Assembly: GCA_008080815.1 (NCBI GenBank) | Contig: VMDM01000005.1 | Coordinates: 1 to 64,000 of the forward strand | Length of the DNA: 64,000 nucleotides | Direction: 5' to 3' | DNA from: Candidatus Nitrosopumilus sp. | GTDB lineage: Archaea; Thermoproteota; Nitrososphaeria; Nitrososphaerales; Nitrosopumilaceae | Shown: positions 7,323 to 62,935 of the stretch, one piece after another | Layout of the letters: every line of letters begins with the position of its first letter | Numbering within the stretch: position 1 is the first letter of the stretch | Position numbers and translations under genes: made by a program | The notes under the pieces: generated by a model | Seen by the model: the letters and a program-made list of their open reading frames with translations, nothing else | The model's database searches: none | Told to the model about the DNA's origin: nothing

Positions 7323-8603
7323 TTGCCAAAAAGAGATTTTTCATTGGTTAATGTTTTAGTTGTGGGCTCTGGAGGACGAGAGCATGCATTATCTTGGAAA
7401 TTATCTCAAAGCTCCAAAGTTGACACAGTTTTTACTGCACCTGGAAATGGCGGAACTCAAAACAACATTCCAATTAATGTTGAAGATTTAGATGCACTTG
7501 CAGATTTTGCTCAAAAAAATAATTGTTTTACAATTGTAGGACCCGAAGCTCCTCTAGCTATGGGGATTGTAGATAAATTTCAAAAACAAAATCTCAAAAT
7601 CTTTGGTCCATCAAAGCAAGCAGCACAATTAGAATCAAGTAAAATCTGGGCAAAAAATTTCATGAAACGAAACAACATTCCAACTGCAAGATTTGAGATA
7701 TTTGATGATCCTCAAAAGGCAAAAGAACATCTGGATTCTATTGATTATGATGTTGTTGTAAAAGCAGATGGTTTGGCTGCTGGAAAAGGTGTAATTGTAT
7801 GTAGCAACAAGGAAGAAGCAATCTCTGCAATTGAGACAATTCTTACAAAAAAAACTTTTGGTGATGCTGGAAACAAAATCATTATTGAGGAACGCATTGA
7901 TGGAATCGAGGCGTCATTTATCGCACTATCTGATGGAAAGATTGCAATTCCTATGGCTTCAAGTCAAGACCACAAACGAATCTTTGATGATGACAAGGGA
8001 CCTAACACTGGTGGTATGGGTGCATATTCTCCAACACCAATTATTGATGAATCTCTTGCAAAAAAAATCCAAGATAAAGTAATTGACAAAACAATCCAGT
8101 CTATGAAATCTGAGGGAATTGAATTTCGAGGATTTCTTTATGCTGGAATAATGCTCAAAGATGGGGAGCCATATGTACTTGAATACAATGTTCGCATGGG
8201 TGATCCTGAATGCCAGCCAATTACAATGAGAATGGATTTTGATTTGTTTGATTATCTTGCTGCAAGCTCTGAAGGACAGTTGCAATCACTTCCACAAATC
8301 AAATGGAAGAACCAATATGCTGTGTGCATAGTTTTAGCATCCAAAGGTTATCCTGAAAAATATCCCAAAGATGAGCCAATCTCTGGAATCTCAAATTCTG
8401 AAGATTCCTACGTTTTTCATGCAGGAACCATCAAAAAAGATCAAGTTATTCTCTCAAATGGTGGACGAGTCCTAGGTGTAACTGCACTTGGTGATACACT
8501 AGAACAAGCAATTCAAAATGCATACAAGCAATCAGATAAAATTTCATGGGCTAACAAATATTGTAGACGTGATATTGGCAAAAAGGGACTATCTTATCTC
8601 TGA
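7323..8603 (+). CDS. purD: phosphoribosylamine-glycine ligase
   Basis: It forms GAR from phosphoribosylamine, glycine and ATP (second step of purine synthesis). It is 426 aa, normal for the family. The N-domain has VVGSGGREHAL (residues 13-23). The ATP-grasp core has VVKADGLAAGKGVIV and GGMGAYSP, and LEYNVRMGDPECQ is the PurD signature. The start is uncertain: TTG at 7323 or TTG at 7344; both precede the conserved strand and no ATG fits. The 3' end overlaps the convergent cyclo-ligase gene by 10 nt. Other one-carbon and purine genes follow within 3 kb. Confidence 0.94.
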   Translation: MPKRDFSLVNVLVVGSGGREHALSWKLSQSSKVDTVFTAPGNGGTQNNIPINVEDLDALADFAQKNNCFTIVGPEAPLAMGIVDKFQKQNLKIFGPSKQAAQLESSKIWAKNFMKRNNIPTARFEIFDDPQKAKEHLDSIDYDVVVKADGLAAGKGVIVCSNKEEAISAIETILTKKTFGDAGNKIIIEERIDGIEASFIALSDGKIAIPMASSQDHKRIFDDDKGPNTGGMGAYSPTPIIDESLAKKIQDKVIDKTIQSMKSEGIEFRGFLYAGIMLKDGEPYVLEYNVRMGDPECQPITMRMDFDLFDYLAASSEGQLQSLPQIKWKNQYAVCIVLASKGYPEKYPKDEPISGISNSEDSYVFHAGTIKKDQVILSNGGRVLGVTALGDTLEQAIQNAYKQSDKISWANKYCRRDIGKKGLSYL

Positions 8604-9166
8604 GTATTGATTAATTGGTCTTCAGTCACAATCCAGTCAATCTGAATATCGTGTTGTGCAACTGGGATATTTTTGACAATCTGTTTTTCCAAAGTAATTG
8701 CAATTGTGGGAATTTTATTTTTTGAGAGGAATCTGTCATAAAATCCCAATCCATATCCCAATCTATCTCCACTTGCTGTAATTCCAATACATGGGACAAT
8801 TATTACGTCAAGTGAATTATCTGATTGACAATTTTCTTTTGGCTCTAAAATATCAAATTTTCCTGACTCTAAATCAGAAAAATCATTAATTTTTTTAAAT
8901 TCTAAATTCTCTCCAATTACTTTTGGCAAATAGATCTCTCTACTCTCACTAAGTAATTTCTGAATAATGTCGTTTGTGTAAATCTCACTTCCTGTGGGAT
9001 AATACAGTCCAATCTTTTTTGCCTTTTTGAAGACATCTATTCGTTCCAACTTTTTTTGAATTTTCTTACTTGCAATCTCCATCAAATTTGCAGACGTATT
9101 GTCTCTTTTTTCAAGCAGAATCTTTCTGAGAGATTTTTTTTCTAAATCAATGTCCAATTTGACCAC
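8594..9166 (-). CDS. 5-formyltetrahydrofolate cyclo-ligase
   Basis: It converts 5-formyl-THF plus ATP to 5,10-methenyl-THF, returning a stalled folate form to the one-carbon pool. It is 190 aa, the usual size. It has YYPTGSEIYTNDI in the N-half, VPCIGITASGDRLGYGLGFY with the Gly-rich loop near residue 135, and the YDRFL that follows. It overlaps folD upstream by 20 nt on the same strand, so the two are probably co-transcribed and serve the same C1 pool used by purN. Confidence 0.88.
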   Translation of the reverse strand: MVKLDIDLEKKSLRKILLEKRDNTSANLMEIASKKIQKKLERIDVFKKAKKIGLYYPTGSEIYTNDIIQKLLSESREIYLPKVIGENLEFKKINDFSDLESGKFDILEPKENCQSDNSLDVIIVPCIGITASGDRLGYGLGFYDRFLSKNKIPTIAITLEKQIVKNIPVAQHDIQIDWIVTEDQLINTQR

Positions 9167-10010
9167 TCAATGAAGCAGCAGTTACTGTATTTTTTAAAAG
9201 CATTGCAACTGTCATGGGTCCAACACCACCTGGAACTGGTGTGGCAAATGATGCTTTAGAAATAATCTCATCATAATCTGCATCTCCTGCCAACTTGTCA
9301 TTGTGTCTAGTTATGGCAACATCAATTACGACTGCACCCTCTTTAATCATGTCTGAAGTTAGTGTGAATTTGGTTCTATCGCCAACTGCTGAAATTACAA
9401 TGTCTGCTTCTCTGCAAACTTGATCAAGATTCTTTGTCTTTGAATGACATGTAATGACTGTGGCATTTCTTTGGAGTAGCAAGTGATACAATGGCTTTCC
9501 AACTAGATTGCTTCTATTAATCAAGACGATATTTTTTCCCTCCAAATCTATATTGTGATAATCAAACATCTCCATTACTCCTGATGGTGTACATGCAACA
9601 AGTGCTGCTTTTTTCATTGACAACAACCCTGCATTATGTGGTGTGAGTCCATCTACATCTTTGAGTGGTGAAATTCTAGATATTGTTGTAAATTCATCTA
9701 GGTGTTTTGGAAGTGGTAATTGAACTAAAATTCCGTGAACTTGATTATCTGAATTTAATTCATCAATTATTTTGTTTAATTCTTCTTGTGTAATGCTAGA
9801 CTCTAATTTGTGATCCTTTGTGGCAATTCCTACTTCTTGACATGCATTGTGTTTGTTTCTAACATATGTGGCTGAAGCCGGATTGTCTCCAACAAGTACT
9901 GTTGCAAGACACGGGTTGATTCCTTGAGTTTTTAATTGCTCCACTGCTTGCTTTACTCTATCTTTAACTGATTGAGCGATAACTTTGCCATCAATCTTGG
10001 TACCTGTCAT
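9147..10010 (-). CDS. folD: bifunctional methylene-THF dehydrogenase / methenyl-THF cyclohydrolase
   Basis: FolD interconverts 5,10-methylene-, 5,10-methenyl- and 10-formyl-THF, supplying purine formylations. It is 287 aa, typical. The substrate site VGDNPASATYVRNK is at about 40-54 with the catalytic Lys in YVRNK. VQLPLPKHLDE and the NAD(P)-binding NRSNLVGKPL (about 165) follow, then VDVAITR and the C-terminal GGVGPMTVAML. It is the first gene of a pair with the cyclo-ligase. Archaea with tetrahydromethanopterin-only C1 metabolism lack folD, so its presence points to folate use in this lineage. Confidence 0.95.
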   Translation of the reverse strand: MTGTKIDGKVIAQSVKDRVKQAVEQLKTQGINPCLATVLVGDNPASATYVRNKHNACQEVGIATKDHKLESSITQEELNKIIDELNSDNQVHGILVQLPLPKHLDEFTTISRISPLKDVDGLTPHNAGLLSMKKAALVACTPSGVMEMFDYHNIDLEGKNIVLINRSNLVGKPLYHLLLQRNATVITCHSKTKNLDQVCREADIVISAVGDRTKFTLTSDMIKEGAVVIDVAITRHNDKLAGDADYDEIISKASFATPVPGGVGPMTVAMLLKNTVTAASLSGQIGH

Positions 10011-10091
10011 GGGATTGATTTACTTGTTTGATATTTAATTCTTGGATTTGTTTTCAAAAACAATTTTAACGGCAAATAAATCACAAATATC

Positions 10092-10376
10092 ATGTTCATT
10101 ATGATGGCAGATATTCAATTGAAGGAAGGTGCCGAAGACGACTTTAAGAAATGGTTCTCAGAATCAAATGGTGTCTTGCGTAATTTTCCAGGATTCATCT
10201 CCAGACGATTTTTGAAATCCGGTGATGGCAGTTATAGAATAATTGTAGAGCATGAAAGCAAAGAGACTTTTATCTCAATGCACAATAGTCCTGAGCACGA
10301 AAAATTGCACCCAACTGGTCATTCATTCATGAGTGCTCCTCCTGCAAGAAAGACATACACCGTTTCAGCTGAATAG
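10092..10376 (+). CDS. antibiotic-biosynthesis-monooxygenase (ABM) fold protein
   Basis: A 94-residue ferredoxin-like dimeric alpha/beta barrel protein. It starts MFIMMADIQLKEGAED, continues with FPGFISRRFLKS and has the typical HNSPEHEKLHPTGHSF helix region. ABM proteins are heme-degrading or quinol monooxygenases, or simply small-molecule-binding proteins. No substrate can be told from sequence. The first residues may be MMADIQ rather than MFIMMAD. It is followed 2 nt later by a cupin gene, suggesting a two-gene unit. Confidence 0.7.
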   Translation: MFIMMADIQLKEGAEDDFKKWFSESNGVLRNFPGFISRRFLKSGDGSYRIIVEHESKETFISMHNSPEHEKLHPTGHSFMSAPPARKTYTVSAE

Positions 10377-10378
10377 AT

Positions 10379-10699
10379 GTGAAATTAGAATTCGAATTAG
10401 AACCGATTCTTGAAAAGATAAAGAACGGCTCTTCATATTTTCATACTTTTATCAACAAAGACAGCCTTGCTGCCGGAGTTTTGTATCTAAAACCAGGAGA
10501 AGAAGACACACAAGAGCCTCACAGTAGCGATGAGGTTTATTTTATTATCTCTGGAGATGGATTTCTAAAAATCAAAGACACTGATTATGCTGTTTCAAAA
10601 GACAAATTCTTTTTTGTAAAAAAAGATATCCCTCACCATTTTCATGGAAATAAAAAACCACTCAAAGTCCTGTACTTTTTTGGTGGACCTGATGATTAA
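10379..10699 (+). CDS. single-domain cupin protein
   Basis: A 106-residue conserved-barrel protein starts with GTG 2 nt after the ABM gene. Cupin motif 1 appears as EPHSSDEVYFIISGDGFL (His and Glu present) and motif 2 as DIPHHFHGNKKP. Metal ligands are therefore plausible (His in EPHS, Glu in DEVYF, His in PHHFH). Substrate is unknown. The 3' end overlaps the convergent purN by 4 nt. Co-directionality with the ABM-fold gene suggests a joint, unknown oxidative or binding role. Confidence 0.78.
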   Translation: MKLEFELEPILEKIKNGSSYFHTFINKDSLAAGVLYLKPGEEDTQEPHSSDEVYFIISGDGFLKIKDTDYAVSKDKFFFVKKDIPHHFHGNKKPLKVLYFFGGPDD

Positions 10700-11313
10700 C
10701 TAATTACTGTTTTTCTTCCTGAAACTTTGACTTTACCTTTAGCAATCAAATTCACTGCTTCAGGATAAATTCTGTGTTCTTCTTTGAGAATTCTCTTTGA
10801 TAATTCTTTATCAGTATCTCCTTCTTTTACTGGAACCACAGCTTGAATAATAATTGGACCTGTATCCATTCCAGAATCTACAAAATGCACTGTACAGCCA
10901 GTAAATTTTACACCATAATCTAGCGCTTGCTTTTGTGAATCTAATCCTGGAAATGCTGGAAGTAATGCTGGGTGAATATTGAGAATTTTATTTTTGTATT
11001 TTTTTACAAACTCTGGACTAATTATTCTCATAAATCCTGCAAGACATACAAGACCATTTTTTTGAGTCACTCCATATTTTGTTAACACTGAAATTATCTT
11101 TTTATCATAATCTGCTCTACTTCCTTCAAATCCCTTACTCTGAACTACCTCTGTTGGTACTCCTAATTTTTGTGCAATCTTTAATCCTGCGGCATCTGGT
11201 TTGTTTGAAATTACAACTGCTGCTTTGATCGGAATTTTTTTCTTTTTGATTGCTTTGAGAATATACTCCATGTTGCTTCCACGACCAGATATGAGAATTC
11301 CAAGATTTAGCAA
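10696..11313 (-). CDS. purN: phosphoribosylglycinamide formyltransferase
   Basis: It transfers the formyl group of 10-formyl-THF to GAR (third step of purine synthesis). It is 205 aa, as usual. It begins NLGILISGRGSNMEYIL (phosphate-binding SGRGSN), has catalytic Asn and His in ILNIHPALLPAFPG, and GCTVHFVDSGMDTGPII with the catalytic Asp. It complements purD and folD in this neighbourhood. The start is 57 nt from the divergent nuclease gene. Confidence 0.95.
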   Translation of the reverse strand: MLNLGILISGRGSNMEYILKAIKKKKIPIKAAVVISNKPDAAGLKIAQKLGVPTEVVQSKGFEGSRADYDKKIISVLTKYGVTQKNGLVCLAGFMRIISPEFVKKYKNKILNIHPALLPAFPGLDSQKQALDYGVKFTGCTVHFVDSGMDTGPIIIQAVVPVKEGDTDKELSKRILKEEHRIYPEAVNLIAKGKVKVSGRKTVIS

Positions 11314-11370
11314 GTAGTCAATAGTGGATCAATCCTGCAATTTATATCAAATCCAAATTGTGTTTGTTTA

Positions 11371-12351
11371 TTGGCTCATACAGTCAGAATGACAAAAAAT
11401 GGCATCTTGTGTGAAGTCAATCAACAACGTGTTTTTCTTGATCCAAAAAATACTGATGCTGATGGGATAAATTTTGTCTCACACGCACATCATGATCATC
11501 TTCCAAAAAAGAAGGGTGGGCTCATTTTATCCTCTCAGGAGACAAACAAACTGGCACATCTTCGAGGCTACACAATGGAGAATCATGTGGATTCCATGCC
11601 TGATTTTGAATTATTGGACAGCGGTCACATTTTAGGCTCAAAAGGGCTGTTCTTTGATGATTTGTTTTTTACAGGTGATATTTGCACTCGAGACCGAGGT
11701 TTTCTTAAAGGTGCCAAAATTCCTAAATGCAAAACCCTCATCACTGAATGCACTTTTGGTTTACCTGAATTTGTATTTCCAAAATTAGATGAAATTAAAA
11801 ATCAAGTCAATGAATTAATTTCTGAACTTTATGGTAAAGGAATTCCTGTAATCTTGATGGGATACCAACTTGGAAAAGCTCAAACCATTACCCAACTTTT
11901 TGGACATTGGGGTCCAATGTATTTTCATGATTCTGTAAAAGAGATGAATGAACTACACAAAAATTTAGGAGTTGAACTAATTGACGGAATGGGACATTCA
12001 GAAGCTGAAGAAAAAGGATTACTGTCAAAAAAACCCTGGATAATGGTTGCTCCAATGACTACATACAAAAACAAATTTGTCCAAGAAATGAAATCAAAAT
12101 ACGGTGCAGTAACTATTGGATTTAGTGGTTGGGCAAGGTCTACAAAATTTTCTTTTGGAAGAAGAACTGATTACTCTATACCAATGAGTGATCATTGTGA
12201 TTTTAATGAATTAATTTCAATGGTGGAACAATCAGGTGCTCAAAAGGTCTACACGATTCACGGATTTGTAAATGAATTTGCTCAAGAATTAAGAAAACGT
12301 GGAATTGATGCTAGTCCGCTCAAAGAAAATACTTTGGAAAATTTTATTTGA
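11371..12351 (+). CDS. metallo-beta-lactamase-fold nuclease (RNA-processing / exonuclease-like)
   Basis: This 326-residue protein of the mRNA-3'-end-processing / Snm1-like branch carries the metal motif SHAHHDHLPK near residue 38, DSGHILGS, TGDIC and a C-terminal MSDHCDF with the last His, followed by VYTIHG. It lacks KH domains, so it is not the aCPSF1 factor. Translation starts with TTG at 11371 (MAHTVRM). It probably cleaves RNA or DNA; substrate unknown. Its end overlaps a convergent Cys-rich gene by 8 nt. Confidence 0.75.
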   Translation: MAHTVRMTKNGILCEVNQQRVFLDPKNTDADGINFVSHAHHDHLPKKKGGLILSSQETNKLAHLRGYTMENHVDSMPDFELLDSGHILGSKGLFFDDLFFTGDICTRDRGFLKGAKIPKCKTLITECTFGLPEFVFPKLDEIKNQVNELISELYGKGIPVILMGYQLGKAQTITQLFGHWGPMYFHDSVKEMNELHKNLGVELIDGMGHSEAEEKGLLSKKPWIMVAPMTTYKNKFVQEMKSKYGAVTIGFSGWARSTKFSFGRRTDYSIPMSDHCDFNELISMVEQSGAQKVYTIHGFVNEFAQELRKRGIDASPLKENTLENFI

Positions 12352-12589
12352 TAAATTTACCACATTCACAATCCCTTACAAGGCATGTTTCTGCATTTCT
12401 GATATGATCATGTGACAAATGTTTACATGATTCATTTTTACAAGTTCTCTTTAGTGCCTCTTTTTTAACAACTGCTTGAGCAATCTGATTTGCCTTTTCT
12501 TTAGAATACCCCTTTTTGTCCATATAGAAATGAACGACACTGTTGTAAAGTTGCTCTGGATTGAATTGTTTTTCAAGCATGAAATTCAA
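12344..12589 (-). CDS. small Cys/His-rich protein, putative zinc-binding
   Basis: This 81-residue protein may start at the second Met (78 aa). The N-half is helical. The C-half has RTCKNESCKHLSHDH and then ETCLVRDCECG, giving five Cys plus His residues that could bind one or two zinc ions. No named family is recognised. It is probably a thaumarchaeal-specific zinc protein. It lies 49 nt downstream of the start region of the glycerate kinase locus, on the same strand as that kinase and after... its stop overlaps the upstream plus-strand nuclease gene by 8 nt. Confidence 0.6.
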   Translation of the reverse strand: MNFMLEKQFNPEQLYNSVVHFYMDKKGYSKEKANQIAQAVVKKEALKRTCKNESCKHLSHDHIRNAETCLVRDCECGKFIK

Positions 12590-12638
12590 TTCCTAATGCG
12601 TCTTTCTTGTATTAAAAGTTCGATCAAAAATTAAGAAA

Positions 12639-13907
12639 TTATCTCAAAATCACGCCTATATCTTGCAAATTTGTATGTGTAAATCCAGTTACAATGTTTG
12701 ATTTTTGTTTTTGAAAGAACCTTCCAGAATCACTATTTTTTAAAAATTCCTTTATTGTTTCAGAATCAAATTTTACATTCTCTGTAATTGCTCCTGCAAA
12801 AACTGAATTTCCATCAATTCCATCAGTTCCCATTGATGCAATGACAATTTTTTTTAATTTTTGTGTATTTTTCAAAATTCTCAAAACAAGTTCCTGATTT
12901 CGTCCACCCATTCCTTTTCCTAACACTTTGACTGTAGGTTCTCCACCAAAAATCAAACAAGTTTTTTCTTCTTCTGAAATATTTTCTACAATTTTTCTAA
13001 CTTGCTCTTTAATGTCTCCGTAAATCTCAATTAATTTGACTTGATAACCCTTCTCTATTGCAGCTTGTTTCATCTTTGATACTACTAGTTGATTATTTGC
13101 AATTACGACATTTTCAATAGGCTCTACTTTCACTGACTCTTTATCTACTCCTTGTTCCAATACATTAAGAACTTCCAATGGTGTCTTTTTTCTCAGATTG
13201 TATTTTTCTAAAACATCTAATGCATCTTTGTAGGTTGTATTATCTGCAAAAGTTGTACCTGACGCAATTGATGATAAATCATCACCTTCAACATCTGACA
13301 TGACTAGAGATATTCCCTTACATCTCATACTTTCTAAAATTTTTCCACCTTTGATTTTTGAGATATGCTTTCTAACACAATTTATCTCTTGAATTGAAGC
13401 ACCTGTTTTGAGAAGTAAATTTGTCATGAATATCTTGTCTTCCAATGTGATTTTATCTGGCAATGCAACAAGAGATGAACCTCCACCTGATACCAAAAAC
13501 ACTACTAATTCATCTGATTTTCTTGATGACAAAAACTTGATAATTTCTTTTGCAGCCTTGACACTTGTTTTGTCTGGTTGTGGGTGTTTCGAGTTAAAAA
13601 TCTGAAATTTCTTACCTTTGACCAAAGACTTTGAGCCTTTAGGAATGACAATTATTCCTGCTTTGACTGGAATTATGGCATTTACTGCTCTAGTCATGGA
13701 ATCTCCTGCTTTTCCAAATGCAACTGTGTAAATGTTTGAAAATTCATTCAACTTTAGTGATTTTGAACCAATTTTGATTTCATTTGGAAATAGATAATCT
13801 GGAATAATATTTTGTGGATTTGCAGCTTCTAGTCCTTTCTCCAAAATCTCTAAACATTCTCTTTTTCTAGATGTATCTGACAAATCTTCAAAATTTTGAA
13901 TAATCAT
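12639..13907 (-). CDS. glycerate 2-kinase, MOFRL family
   Basis: It phosphorylates D-glycerate to 2-phosphoglycerate. It is 422 aa. The N-terminal domain has VSGGGSSLVALP and the conserved MSDVEGDDLSSIASGTT. The C-terminal MOFRL domain has FGGEPTVKVLGKGMGGRNQE and ASMGTDGIDG. Length and motifs match class II glycerate kinases found in Thermotoga and archaea. The start is 43 nt from the divergent dehydrogenase gene (52 nt to its preferred ATG), so the promoters overlap. Confidence 0.9.
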   Translation of the reverse strand: MIIQNFEDLSDTSRKRECLEILEKGLEAANPQNIIPDYLFPNEIKIGSKSLKLNEFSNIYTVAFGKAGDSMTRAVNAIIPVKAGIIVIPKGSKSLVKGKKFQIFNSKHPQPDKTSVKAAKEIIKFLSSRKSDELVVFLVSGGGSSLVALPDKITLEDKIFMTNLLLKTGASIQEINCVRKHISKIKGGKILESMRCKGISLVMSDVEGDDLSSIASGTTFADNTTYKDALDVLEKYNLRKKTPLEVLNVLEQGVDKESVKVEPIENVVIANNQLVVSKMKQAAIEKGYQVKLIEIYGDIKEQVRKIVENISEEEKTCLIFGGEPTVKVLGKGMGGRNQELVLRILKNTQKLKKIVIASMGTDGIDGNSVFAGAITENVKFDSETIKEFLKNSDSGRFFQKQKSNIVTGFTHTNLQDIGVILR

Positions 13908-60011: not shown

Positions 60012-60461
60012 CTATTTTGGTGGTTCCTTTTTAATTCTGTATATGTTCCTCTTTGAAATAACTACTGCGTCTCCTTCATTATTAGTTCCTTCATAATCTA
60101 CAAAAATTTTTCCATACTCTTCATCGATTTCTTCTACTTCTGAAATTATGAATTTCAATTTTAAAACTTGATCCGTTAATAGTGGTTTCAGAAACCTGGT
60201 GTTTCTATTTTCCCAATTTGGATCTCCATCTGTACCCAAAAATATTATGTGATTTCCATAAATTTGACTTAATCTTGTAAATTCTCCCTCCATTCTCGAT
60301 AAAATTGCCCGACCAGAAATAATCTGTTCTCCTTTATTTTTATTTTCTAAAAATGCATTTCTTACTCTAGAGAAATTAAGATATTCTTCTAACTCTTTTT
60401 CAGAAATACTGCAGGTTGAAAAAAATGAATCTCCTACTCTAAACTCTGAAAATTTTTTCAT
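60012..60461 (-). CDS. MaoC/hotdog-fold protein, putative hydratase
   Basis: 149 aa. FSEFRVGDSFFSTCSISEKE is the usual MaoC opening, followed by a helix region, ISGRAILSRMEGEFTRL, NHIIFLGTD and strands LKPLLTDQVLKLKFIISEVE ending VVISKRNIYRI. The catalytic Asp/His hydratase pair is not clear, so it may be a non-catalytic or thioesterase-like hotdog. The start overlaps the stop of the double-SDR gene by one base, implying a linked role, perhaps on an acyl-CoA substrate. Confidence 0.6.
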   Translation of the reverse strand: MKKFSEFRVGDSFFSTCSISEKELEEYLNFSRVRNAFLENKNKGEQIISGRAILSRMEGEFTRLSQIYGNHIIFLGTDGDPNWENRNTRFLKPLLTDQVLKLKFIISEVEEIDEEYGKIFVDYEGTNNEGDAVVISKRNIYRIKKEPPK

Positions 60462-62230
60462 TATCTGGATTCATCAACACAGAATGTTACTTCTGATGAT
60501 TCTGCGGCATGTTCAGAAACTAGAAAGTTCAATGCTTCAGCAATTCTTTGGTGGTTTGGTTCTGCTCCTGAGATTGAACCTGGGAAAATTGAGAATATTC
60601 TTATTTTTGAATTCAACACATCACTTAGTTCTTGATTTGTAGTTGTTGTAAATGGTCTTAATGCCCCTCTGAATACTTCAACTTGAGCTCTAGCAGTACC
60701 TGAGACCTTTTTACCTGAAGGCAAATCTGGACCAATTATCATGATTGCTCCTTTTGCATCTTTGTATAGTCTTGGATCCTTGTCCCCACCTGGAACAAAT
60801 TGCTGTAGTGCTCTTTGTGCGACATTAGCTGGGGTTGAAATGAATTTCTCGGTTAATTCTTCCCATCCTGCACGATTTAGTTCTGTTAATTTTGAAATTT
60901 CAGGTAATTTACCTGTAATGTGAATGACTGCTAAAATATCACCTAAGTTGGTTTTTGCAGTGTTTAACCATCTTTGAACTTCCTCTGGTTTCTTAATATC
61001 TACAATATGAGAATGACATTTTGAACTAATTTGTTCTTGTACATTTGTTGGAGTTGATGGTGAAATGAAACATGCTACTTTTCCGCCGTTCTTTTGAATG
61101 TAATCTGCTAAAAATACAACCCTTTCTGCATCAGTTGAATCTGTTCCATCAATTGTAAAAACAATTGATTTTCCAGAAAAATTAATTTGATGAACATTTG
61201 GAGTTGTTGTTCCAACATGTGGTTTAACTGGATAAAACACTCTATCTCCTGGAATTACTTTACCGTTCAAAATTCTTGCAATTTCGTCATCACATAGATT
61301 TAGAACAGATTCAGCAACTTGTGATTGTGATAGAAATTCTCTATTTGCAATCATATGTGATGTATTATTTTGTACTTTTTCAGCAATTGTTTGAATTTTA
61401 TTTAAGAGATTAGAAAATGTGGTTTTTAATTTTTCAACATCTCTACCATTTGCAAGTTTTGTTGCAGCTTCTGTAATTCCATTTTGAATAAATGATTCTT
61501 CTTCACCAAGTAATGGTAATAGTTCTTTAGCAGCTGATTCCACTTCAATTGGTGTAAGTTCTTCAAATCCACTAACTCTCATAAATTCTGCTGCAGCTTT
61601 AGGATATACTGTCTTGTAAATTCTGTCAGAATGAACAGGACCAGGATTTGTTGCAATTGAAATTATTCCTTTATCTGTTAATTCCCATGACATTGCTTCT
61701 GCAAGTCTATTTTTTGCTCCTTGTGATGCAGTGTATGGACTTCTAAATCTGTATGGTCTTTGTTCTAATGGTCTTTCTTCAGTAAAGAAAGTAGATATTG
61801 TAATGATTTTTGCACCTTCTTTCATTACTTTTAGGGCTTGTACTGAACCCCAGAAGGTTCCAGTAAGATGAATTCCAATTGTACTTTTGAAATCATCTAA
61901 TGAAGCATTTGCAAAACATGTAACTGGACCTGAAACTCCTGCATTATTTATTAAATAATCTACATTTACATTTTCATTTTTTAAAGTGTCAAACATTTGA
62001 TTCATAGCTGATTCGTCAGCAACATCTACTCCTGGAAATATCTTAACTGATGCTCCTGTATTTTTCTCTGAAATAATTTTTTGTAATTCATTTGCTGCTT
62101 CTTCTAAAGGCTCTTTTCTTCTACCTAGAATAATCACTGTGGCTCCATTTTCAACAAATTTTGTCGCAATTGCTTTTCCAATTCCTGTTCCACTTCCCGT
62201 TACTAATGCAACTTTGCCCTGAAACTTCAT
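60461..62230 (-). CDS. double-SDR protein resembling half of Chloroflexus-type malonyl-CoA reductase
   Basis: 589 aa. SDR module 1 (1-270) has the cofactor motif VTGSGTGIGKAIA, NNAGVSGP, the Ser-bearing IITISTFFTEERP and SPYTASQGAKNRL. The usual YxxxK is YxxxQ here, so the catalytic Lys is missing. After a helical linker (275-345), a second Rossmann-like SDR module (350-589) lacks the GxxxGxG motif (FTIDGTDSTDAER). One active-looking plus one degenerate SDR in about 590 residues matches the layout of each half of bifunctional malonyl-CoA reductase. The next gene encodes a hotdog protein. Function unproven. Confidence 0.7.
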   Translation of the reverse strand: MKFQGKVALVTGSGTGIGKAIATKFVENGATVIILGRRKEPLEEAANELQKIISEKNTGASVKIFPGVDVADESAMNQMFDTLKNENVNVDYLINNAGVSGPVTCFANASLDDFKSTIGIHLTGTFWGSVQALKVMKEGAKIITISTFFTEERPLEQRPYRFRSPYTASQGAKNRLAEAMSWELTDKGIISIATNPGPVHSDRIYKTVYPKAAAEFMRVSGFEELTPIEVESAAKELLPLLGEEESFIQNGITEAATKLANGRDVEKLKTTFSNLLNKIQTIAEKVQNNTSHMIANREFLSQSQVAESVLNLCDDEIARILNGKVIPGDRVFYPVKPHVGTTTPNVHQINFSGKSIVFTIDGTDSTDAERVVFLADYIQKNGGKVACFISPSTPTNVQEQISSKCHSHIVDIKKPEEVQRWLNTAKTNLGDILAVIHITGKLPEISKLTELNRAGWEELTEKFISTPANVAQRALQQFVPGGDKDPRLYKDAKGAIMIIGPDLPSGKKVSGTARAQVEVFRGALRPFTTTTNQELSDVLNSKIRIFSIFPGSISGAEPNHQRIAEALNFLVSEHAAESSEVTFCVDESR

Positions 62231-62557: not shown

Positions 62558-62935
62558 ATGCAAGATCCAAATCCAATGCCTTGGGGTGCTTTAGATAGAT
62601 TTCAAGCACACTTTATTGTTAGAAAAGATACTTCTTCTGAAGATGGCAATTATGTAGCAAAGAGTATTCTTGCTACCAAAGGACATTTTGCATCAAAAAC
62701 TGTAACTTCAGTTTCTTGGAATGGTCCAGGATTAATTGCAATAAAACTCAATGAAGACAATGAATTAAATGAAATGCTTTCAAAACAATCTGTCAAAAAT
62801 GCATCAATTTACATTGAACCCACTGATGGTGCTGTCCGAATTAGAGGTAAATGGGATAATCATCTAGCTTTTGGAATTTCTAAAGAAATGTTTGAAATTT
62901 ACAATAGGATAGCAGGTCACATAAAATCTATCTAG
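62558..62935 (+). CDS. uncharacterised protein, partner of preceding gene
   Basis: A 125-residue mostly beta protein (GALDRFQAHFIVRKDTSSE, SVSWNGPGLIAIKLNEDN, ASIYIEPTDGAVRIRGKW). No motif is recognised. Tight spacing to the upstream small gene suggests the two products act together. The 3' end overlaps the convergent endA by 4 nt. Confidence 0.6.
   Translation: MQDPNPMPWGALDRFQAHFIVRKDTSSEDGNYVAKSILATKGHFASKTVTSVSWNGPGLIAIKLNEDNELNEMLSKQSVKNASIYIEPTDGAVRIRGKWDNHLAFGISKEMFEIYNRIAGHIKSI

Follow-up and report, generated by a model that had tools for sequence, protein, structure and literature searches.

A half-size double-SDR protein of ammonia-oxidizing archaea is a candidate malonyl-CoA reductase

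Background

In Sulfolobales, one promiscuous malonyl-CoA/succinyl-CoA reductase, an ASADH-like enzyme, serves both the malonyl-CoA and the succinyl-CoA reduction step. The bacterial malonyl-CoA reductase (MCR) is a bifunctional chain of four SDR modules, in which an N-half (SDR1-SDR2) is fused to a C-half (SDR3-ED-SDR4, where ED is an extra domain). In the Roseiflexus enzyme, Tyr743, Arg746 and Tyr749 of a YxxRxxY motif present in both SDR3 and SDR1 hold the malonyl end, and the sites are completed by Thr165/Ser731, Lys182/Lys753, Arg215 and Arg785; mutating most active-site residues lowers or abolishes activity, and Lys753Ala is inactive (PMC10470521).

Reduction of malonyl-CoA is a committed step of the HP/HB cycle, and its gene in ammonia-oxidizing archaea (AOA) has repeatedly been stated to be missing. 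Malonyl-CoA reductase is one of four Nitrosopumilus maritimus enzymes with measured activity in extracts and no gene, and the succinyl-CoA reductase and succinic semialdehyde reductase of this organism are likewise without one (PMC6038301). A paper of 2020 restates the malonyl-CoA reductase gene as missing (PMC6964070), and according to one of 2021 the thaumarchaeal enzymes for these reactions have no homology to the Sulfolobales enzymes (PMC7845616). In the literature searched, which took in few subscription papers, no later identification of the thaumarchaeal enzyme was found; in this literature the gap to which a first, sequence-only reading of the present locus had pointed is a real one (PMC6038301, PMC6964070). 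Malonic semialdehyde reductase has been assigned to Nmar_1110 (Otte 2015, as cited in PMC7845616).

Locus and architecture

The window, a stretch of 64,000 nucleotides from Candidatus Nitrosopumilus sp., lies in an assembly of 1.07 Mb (87% complete) in which archaeal AmoA is present. A PF02774 search of this genome recovered two ASADH-type genes only, which read, from their sequences and neighbours, as Asd-like and ArgC/LysY-like; no gene of this 87%-complete genome stands out as an MCR of the Sulfolobales type. Near the end of the window, two ORFs overlap by 1 nt, at TAATG, one encoding a double-SDR protein of 589 aa and the other a hotdog protein of 149 aa (Table 1).

The sequence-only reading had described both this overlap and the pairing of a classical with a degenerate SDR module, and each description held. 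The whole 589-aa protein matches PF00106 at 140 bits; module 1 is a classical SDR carrying TGSGTGIG and NNAG, and module 2 alone gives matches to PF13561 (E 6e-6) and PF00106 (E 9e-5), neither reaching the curated cut-off. An AlphaFold model made from 28 homologs (pLDDT 90, pTM 0.90) has two Rossmann-like domains with a helical insert between them. The protein is conserved at 45–100% identity across four AOA families, so the gene is not a chance ORF.

Module 2 has been called degenerate, yet it contains a near-invariant helix, FRGA[LM]RP..T..QE (FRGA[LM]RP in 106/107 homologs), which suggests a direct role for the module; to judge from its conservation, the helix could perhaps bind CoA as Arg1164 of MCR-C does. 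In marine group I genomes L094, L095 and L097–L100 the SDR is shortened to about 535–550 aa and is not accompanied by the hotdog gene; in L099 the shortened protein has a deletion in module 2.

Table 1. Positions in the window of the double-SDR gene, its modules and motifs, and the hotdog gene.
Feature	Position	Strand	Basis
Double-SDR protein, 589 aa, candidate acyl-CoA (malonyl-CoA) reductase	60461..62230	-	ORF; single copy in AOA; Foldseek ranks 1-25 are malonyl-CoA reductase
SDR module 1, residues 1-204, catalytic, NADP-binding TGSGTGIG	61619..62230	-	PF00106; hmmsearch 89 bits (MCR SDR3), 77 bits (SDR1)
Y160-x-x-R163-x-x-Y166-x-x-x-Q170: MCR-type malonate-binding YxxRxxY, Gln replacing catalytic Lys	61721..61753	-	107/107 homologs; role per PMC10470521; 0/28 generic SDRs
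Thr147, counterpart of catalytic Thr165 (SDR1)/Ser731 (SDR3) of Roseiflexus MCR	61790..61792	-	107/107 homologs; alignment
Ser201-x-Arg203 in PGPVHSDR, aligned to Ser213/Arg215 (MCR-N) and Arg785 (MCR-C)	61622..61630	-	107/107 homologs; alignments; roles per PMC10470521
Linker/insert, mostly helical, residues 205-345, where MCR-C has its extra domain	61196..61618	-	Helices 202-321 in the model
SDR module 2, residues 346-589, degenerate, presumed structural	60461..61195	-	Weak PF13561/PF00106 matches; Rossmann-like fold in the model
FRGALRP, residues 520-526, long helix of module 2	60653..60673	-	FRGA[LM]RP in 106/107; invariant columns
Hotdog protein, MaoC fold, 149 aa, accessory, lacking a conserved catalytic His	60012..60461	-	Model and Foldseek; alignment; patchy distribution

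Resemblance to malonyl-CoA reductase

Foldseek comparison of the SDR model with the PDB returned MCR halves or whole MCR at every one of ranks 1–25 (E 1.6e-27 to 9e-20, TM about 0.7, both domains covered), with the best TM values being TMq up to 0.73 for the C-half (E 1.6e-27) and TMt up to 0.77 for the N-half. The first match outside MCR was the double SDR of MFE-2 (2et6), a (3R)-hydroxyacyl-CoA dehydrogenase that likewise has two tandem SDRs and an acyl-CoA substrate, but whose fold match is lower (E 3e-19, TM 0.55, rmsd 15.6); single SDRs came behind it, at E about 1e-14. The archaeal protein has the tandem SDR pair of MCR, catalytic first and degenerate second, and it lacks the fusion of two halves found in the bifunctional four-SDR chain, having two modules in its 589 aa. 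The Sulfolobales enzyme, whose reaction is the one proposed for the AOA protein, has a semialdehyde dehydrogenase fold unrelated to the SDR fold found here.

With the MCR C-half (Chloroflexus, Roseiflexus and Porphyrobacter; 8j2c, 8hi5, 6k8u), the archaeal SDR shares the tandem of classical and degenerate SDRs in matching relative arrangement, YxxRxxY, PGPxx[SG]xR and a helical insert after the core of module 1; it differs in its overall sequence (approximately 18% identity), its Gln for Lys, its shorter insert and the want of a fused N-half. The N-half (8hi6, 8aew, 6k8v) is of similar size (about 550–580 aa) and has in common with it a Thr-Tyr-Arg-Tyr pocket and PGPxxSxRI, whereas the archaeal protein has a longer insert, and Gln in place of the Lys that the semialdehyde reductase needs.

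In the profile comparison with both halves, proposed in the sequence-only reading as a check, the archaeal profile scored 170 bits summed on Chloroflexus MCR (89 on SDR3 and 77 on SDR1). Sequence by itself is not decisive, however, since the generic SDR 4iuy scores 93.6 bits against module 1 alone, level with MCR-C (about 93). Assignment by best PDB sequence match was rejected on account of this tie, module 2 finding generic SDRs only. Between module 2 and SDR4 there was no usable sequence match, and no counterparts were assigned to Arg799 and Arg1164, which bind CoA in MCR-C. Of the result that was expected to tell against the MCR proposal, a better fit to another SDR family, no more than a tie in a single domain by sequence was seen; structure, motif and tree lead us to prefer MCR over a generic SDR despite the level scores. 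Plasmid searches gave no bacterial double-SDR homolog covering most of the query, and no MCR.

Active site and module-1 tree

Thr147, Tyr160, Arg163, Tyr166 and Arg203 are invariant in 107/107 archaeal homologs, which supplies both the catalytic Ser/Thr and Tyr (T147, Y166) and, within a PGPxxSxR likewise present in 107/107, the Arg of the MCR motif PGPxx[SG]xR (Roseiflexus Arg215/Arg785). The equivalent residues of Roseiflexus MCR bind malonate or malonic semialdehyde (PMC10470521). The active-site stretch is PYRFRSPYTASQ in the archaeal SDR and PYPNRSDYAVSK in MCR-C. Neither YxxRxxY (Tyr at -6 with Arg at -3) nor PGPxxxxR occurred in any of 28 generic Thermoproteota SDRs (0/28 for each). The one departure recognised at the outset, Gln for the catalytic Lys of YxxxK (YTASQ), is Gln170, and its conservation, about which the sequence-only reading had asked, is complete (107/107 homologs). 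Gln170 could retain the hydrogen bond to the nicotinamide ribose without providing a proton relay for aldehyde-to-alcohol reduction; such a loss would be in keeping with a reaction that ends at the aldehyde, a role for Gln170 that we offer as speculation.

A tree of module 1 set the AOA SDR and both MCR halves apart from generic SDRs with support of 99/95, in a setting where long branches meet at AOA/MCR and the generic SDRs are few and mostly from archaea. Support for the grouping was 95 without the motif columns and 88–92 with either MCR half omitted. The archaeal SDR joined neither MCR-N nor MCR-C specifically. This result supports, rather than proves, a shared ancestry of the AOA SDR and the MCR halves apart from generic SDRs.

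Distribution among genomes

The double SDR was found in 75/151 Nitrososphaerales genomes, always as a single copy, and AmoA also in 75/151: 74 genomes have both, 75 neither, one the SDR only (G142) and one, which is 67% complete, AmoA only (G098). Every well-covered AOA genome searched has the protein, and among 300 genomes sampled across Thermoproteota it was not found outside the ammonia-oxidizer families. Few evolutionary events underlie this pattern, so any function gained by the ammonia-oxidizer ancestor would fit the co-occurrence with AmoA equally; the distribution points to that ancestor and not, by itself, to carbon fixation. Among Thaumarchaeota, published analysis assigns the HP/HB cycle to every ammonia oxidizer and to none of the other members (PMC7845616). 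The proposal that the protein is laid out like one half of a Chloroflexus-type MCR is thus sustained by fold, active-site residues and tree, and accompanied by a distribution that matches AOA and the HP/HB cycle (PMC7845616).

HpaB_N (PF11794) was tried as a marker of the cycle and discarded as too broad, being present also in families without AmoA. For the families mentioned here and below, we infer that f1 is Nitrosopumilaceae, f2 Nitrosocaldaceae and f8 Nitrososphaeraceae. The f2 ammonia oxidizers (G037, G053, G066, G075, G091 and G098) have two adjacent HpaB_N genes, of 4-hydroxybutyryl-CoA dehydratase type, and other ammonia oxidizers have one.

Proposed reaction and alternatives

The observed architecture, fold, motif conservation and distribution are best read as those of a half-size, monofunctional relative of MCR, whose predicted fold and pocket resemble those of an MCR half. 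We do not class the protein as a full member of MCR, because the catalytic Lys is replaced and the activity is that of a candidate. The likeliest single activity is that of malonyl-CoA reductase, the second enzyme of the HP/HB cycle in Thaumarchaeota, a reading to which we give about even odds; that the protein reduces malonyl- or succinyl-CoA, the two taken together, is fairly probable. Counting against malonyl-CoA reductase are the Lys-to-Gln change, the absence of any preference for the C-half in the tree, and the unplaced Arg799 and Arg1164.

We infer the substrate, direction and cofactor, and the parts played by Gln170 and module 2, along the following lines. Module 1 would bind NAD(P)H and perform catalysis, with Tyr160, Arg163 and Tyr166 gripping the free carboxylate of the malonyl (or succinyl) thioester and Thr147 and Tyr166 stabilising the oxyanion. 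Hydride from the nicotinamide would attack the thioester carbonyl, CoA would leave and malonic semialdehyde would be released. The remainder of the pocket, together with the CoA site, would be built by the helical insert and module 2, a part that the extra domain and SDR4 play in MCR-C. Nmar_1110, reportedly an iron-dependent alcohol dehydrogenase, would then act as malonic semialdehyde reductase and complete the reduction to 3-hydroxypropionate.

The same mechanism would serve if the protein were instead the cycle's succinyl-CoA reductase, or if it were promiscuous, reducing both malonyl-CoA and succinyl-CoA and so acting at both missing steps; the SDR's single copy per genome could be taken to speak for this reading. 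The N. maritimus gene for the succinyl-CoA step is missing too (PMC6038301) and the carboxylate-binding motif could take either acid, but every one of the closest relatives with a solved structure is a malonyl-CoA reductase and no sequence feature indicates a C4 substrate, and we consider this improbable. A semialdehyde reductase of MCR-N type, converting aldehyde to hydroxy acid, strikes us as similarly improbable. Thr147 and Ser201-x-Arg203 do resemble Thr165, Ser213 and Arg215 of the N-half, superposition on N-half structures gives a lower rmsd and a higher TMt (0.77), and the succinic semialdehyde reductase is a further enzyme with no gene (PMC6038301). However, the carbonyl-to-alcohol step of SDRs normally needs a Tyr-Lys pair, of which the Lys is here Gln; at about 140 aa, the insert is by estimate longer than in MCR-N; and malonic semialdehyde reduction already has its assigned enzyme in Nmar_1110 (Otte 2015, as cited in PMC7845616).

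Roles other than reduction of malonyl-CoA, succinyl-CoA or a semialdehyde are, as a group, unlikely. The protein might be peculiar to AOA and work outside carbon fixation (in lipid or cofactor metabolism, for instance), having come from the same double-SDR stock and kept the carboxylate pocket. Its distribution shows merely a gene of ammonia oxidizers, it is not linked to HP/HB genes and its Lys is lost; the malonate pocket is nonetheless fully conserved, and the missing reaction is the one that fits the closest solved relatives, which makes such an enzyme rather unlikely. That the double SDR is catalytically dead, or regulatory, as the change of Lys to Gln and the degeneracy of module 2 might suggest, is hard to credit when nucleotide- and substrate-binding residues are invariant across all four ammonia-oxidizer families.

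As a strong and specific candidate for malonyl-CoA reductase, this near-universal, single, half-size SDR with a malonate pocket offers one named protein for the missing step. If the assignment is true, the gap at the second step of the HP/HB cycle in Thaumarchaeota would be closed, and an SDR route would stand beside the bacterial bifunctional MCR and the Sulfolobales ASADH-type enzyme. A tentative proposal, with somewhat less than an even chance of being right, is that this AOA enzyme, a half-size SDR with Gln for Lys that stops at the aldehyde, represents a third class of malonyl-CoA reductase with an independent origin. The Gln-for-Lys change would be informative about catalysis in SDRs and for efforts to engineer 3-hydroxypropionate production.

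Hotdog gene and neighbourhood

No Pfam family detects the hotdog protein. Its description as MaoC-like was nevertheless confirmed by a model (pLDDT 86) that matches MaoC-like 1q6w (TM 0.73), 4ffu (0.66–0.70) and PhaJ 1iq6 (0.63). Unlike these proteins it has no sequence-family match and no invariant His: the catalytic Asp/His dyad of MaoC-type (R)-specific hydratases is absent, and no His stands in an invariant or nearly invariant column of the hotdog alignment. The protein may bind an acyl-CoA.

The hotdog gene adjoins the SDR in 33/34 sampled Nitrosopumilaceae; in f8 it is unlinked to the SDR or broken in ten genomes, and it is absent from AOA families f2 and f3; basal ammonia oxidizers are without it. 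Several Nitrosopumilaceae clades have kept the SDR and lost the hotdog, which is thus not essential to the reaction, and the adjacent pair is a trait of Nitrosopumilaceae only. Of the acyl-CoA reducing pair first envisaged, therefore, the SDR stands as an MCR-like candidate, and the hotdog protein was rejected as its obligatory partner. At least one f8 homolog of the hotdog gene is interrupted by many stops (ten in G142), as if being lost.

No genomic linkage was found between the SDR and HP/HB genes. An argument from operon or neighbourhood was set aside, the conserved neighbours (a tRNA endonuclease, a PhoU-like protein, TauE and others) having no evident link to the cycle. At 62558–62932 the window encodes a conserved 125-aa protein (MQDPNPxPWGAxDRxQAHFIV...), without a Pfam match, that adjoins the SDR in most Nitrosopumilaceae and in f3. 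In L050, a 1782-aa ORF (7796–13141, minus strand) lies directly downstream of the SDR, in the place taken in relatives by the hotdog gene and TauE.
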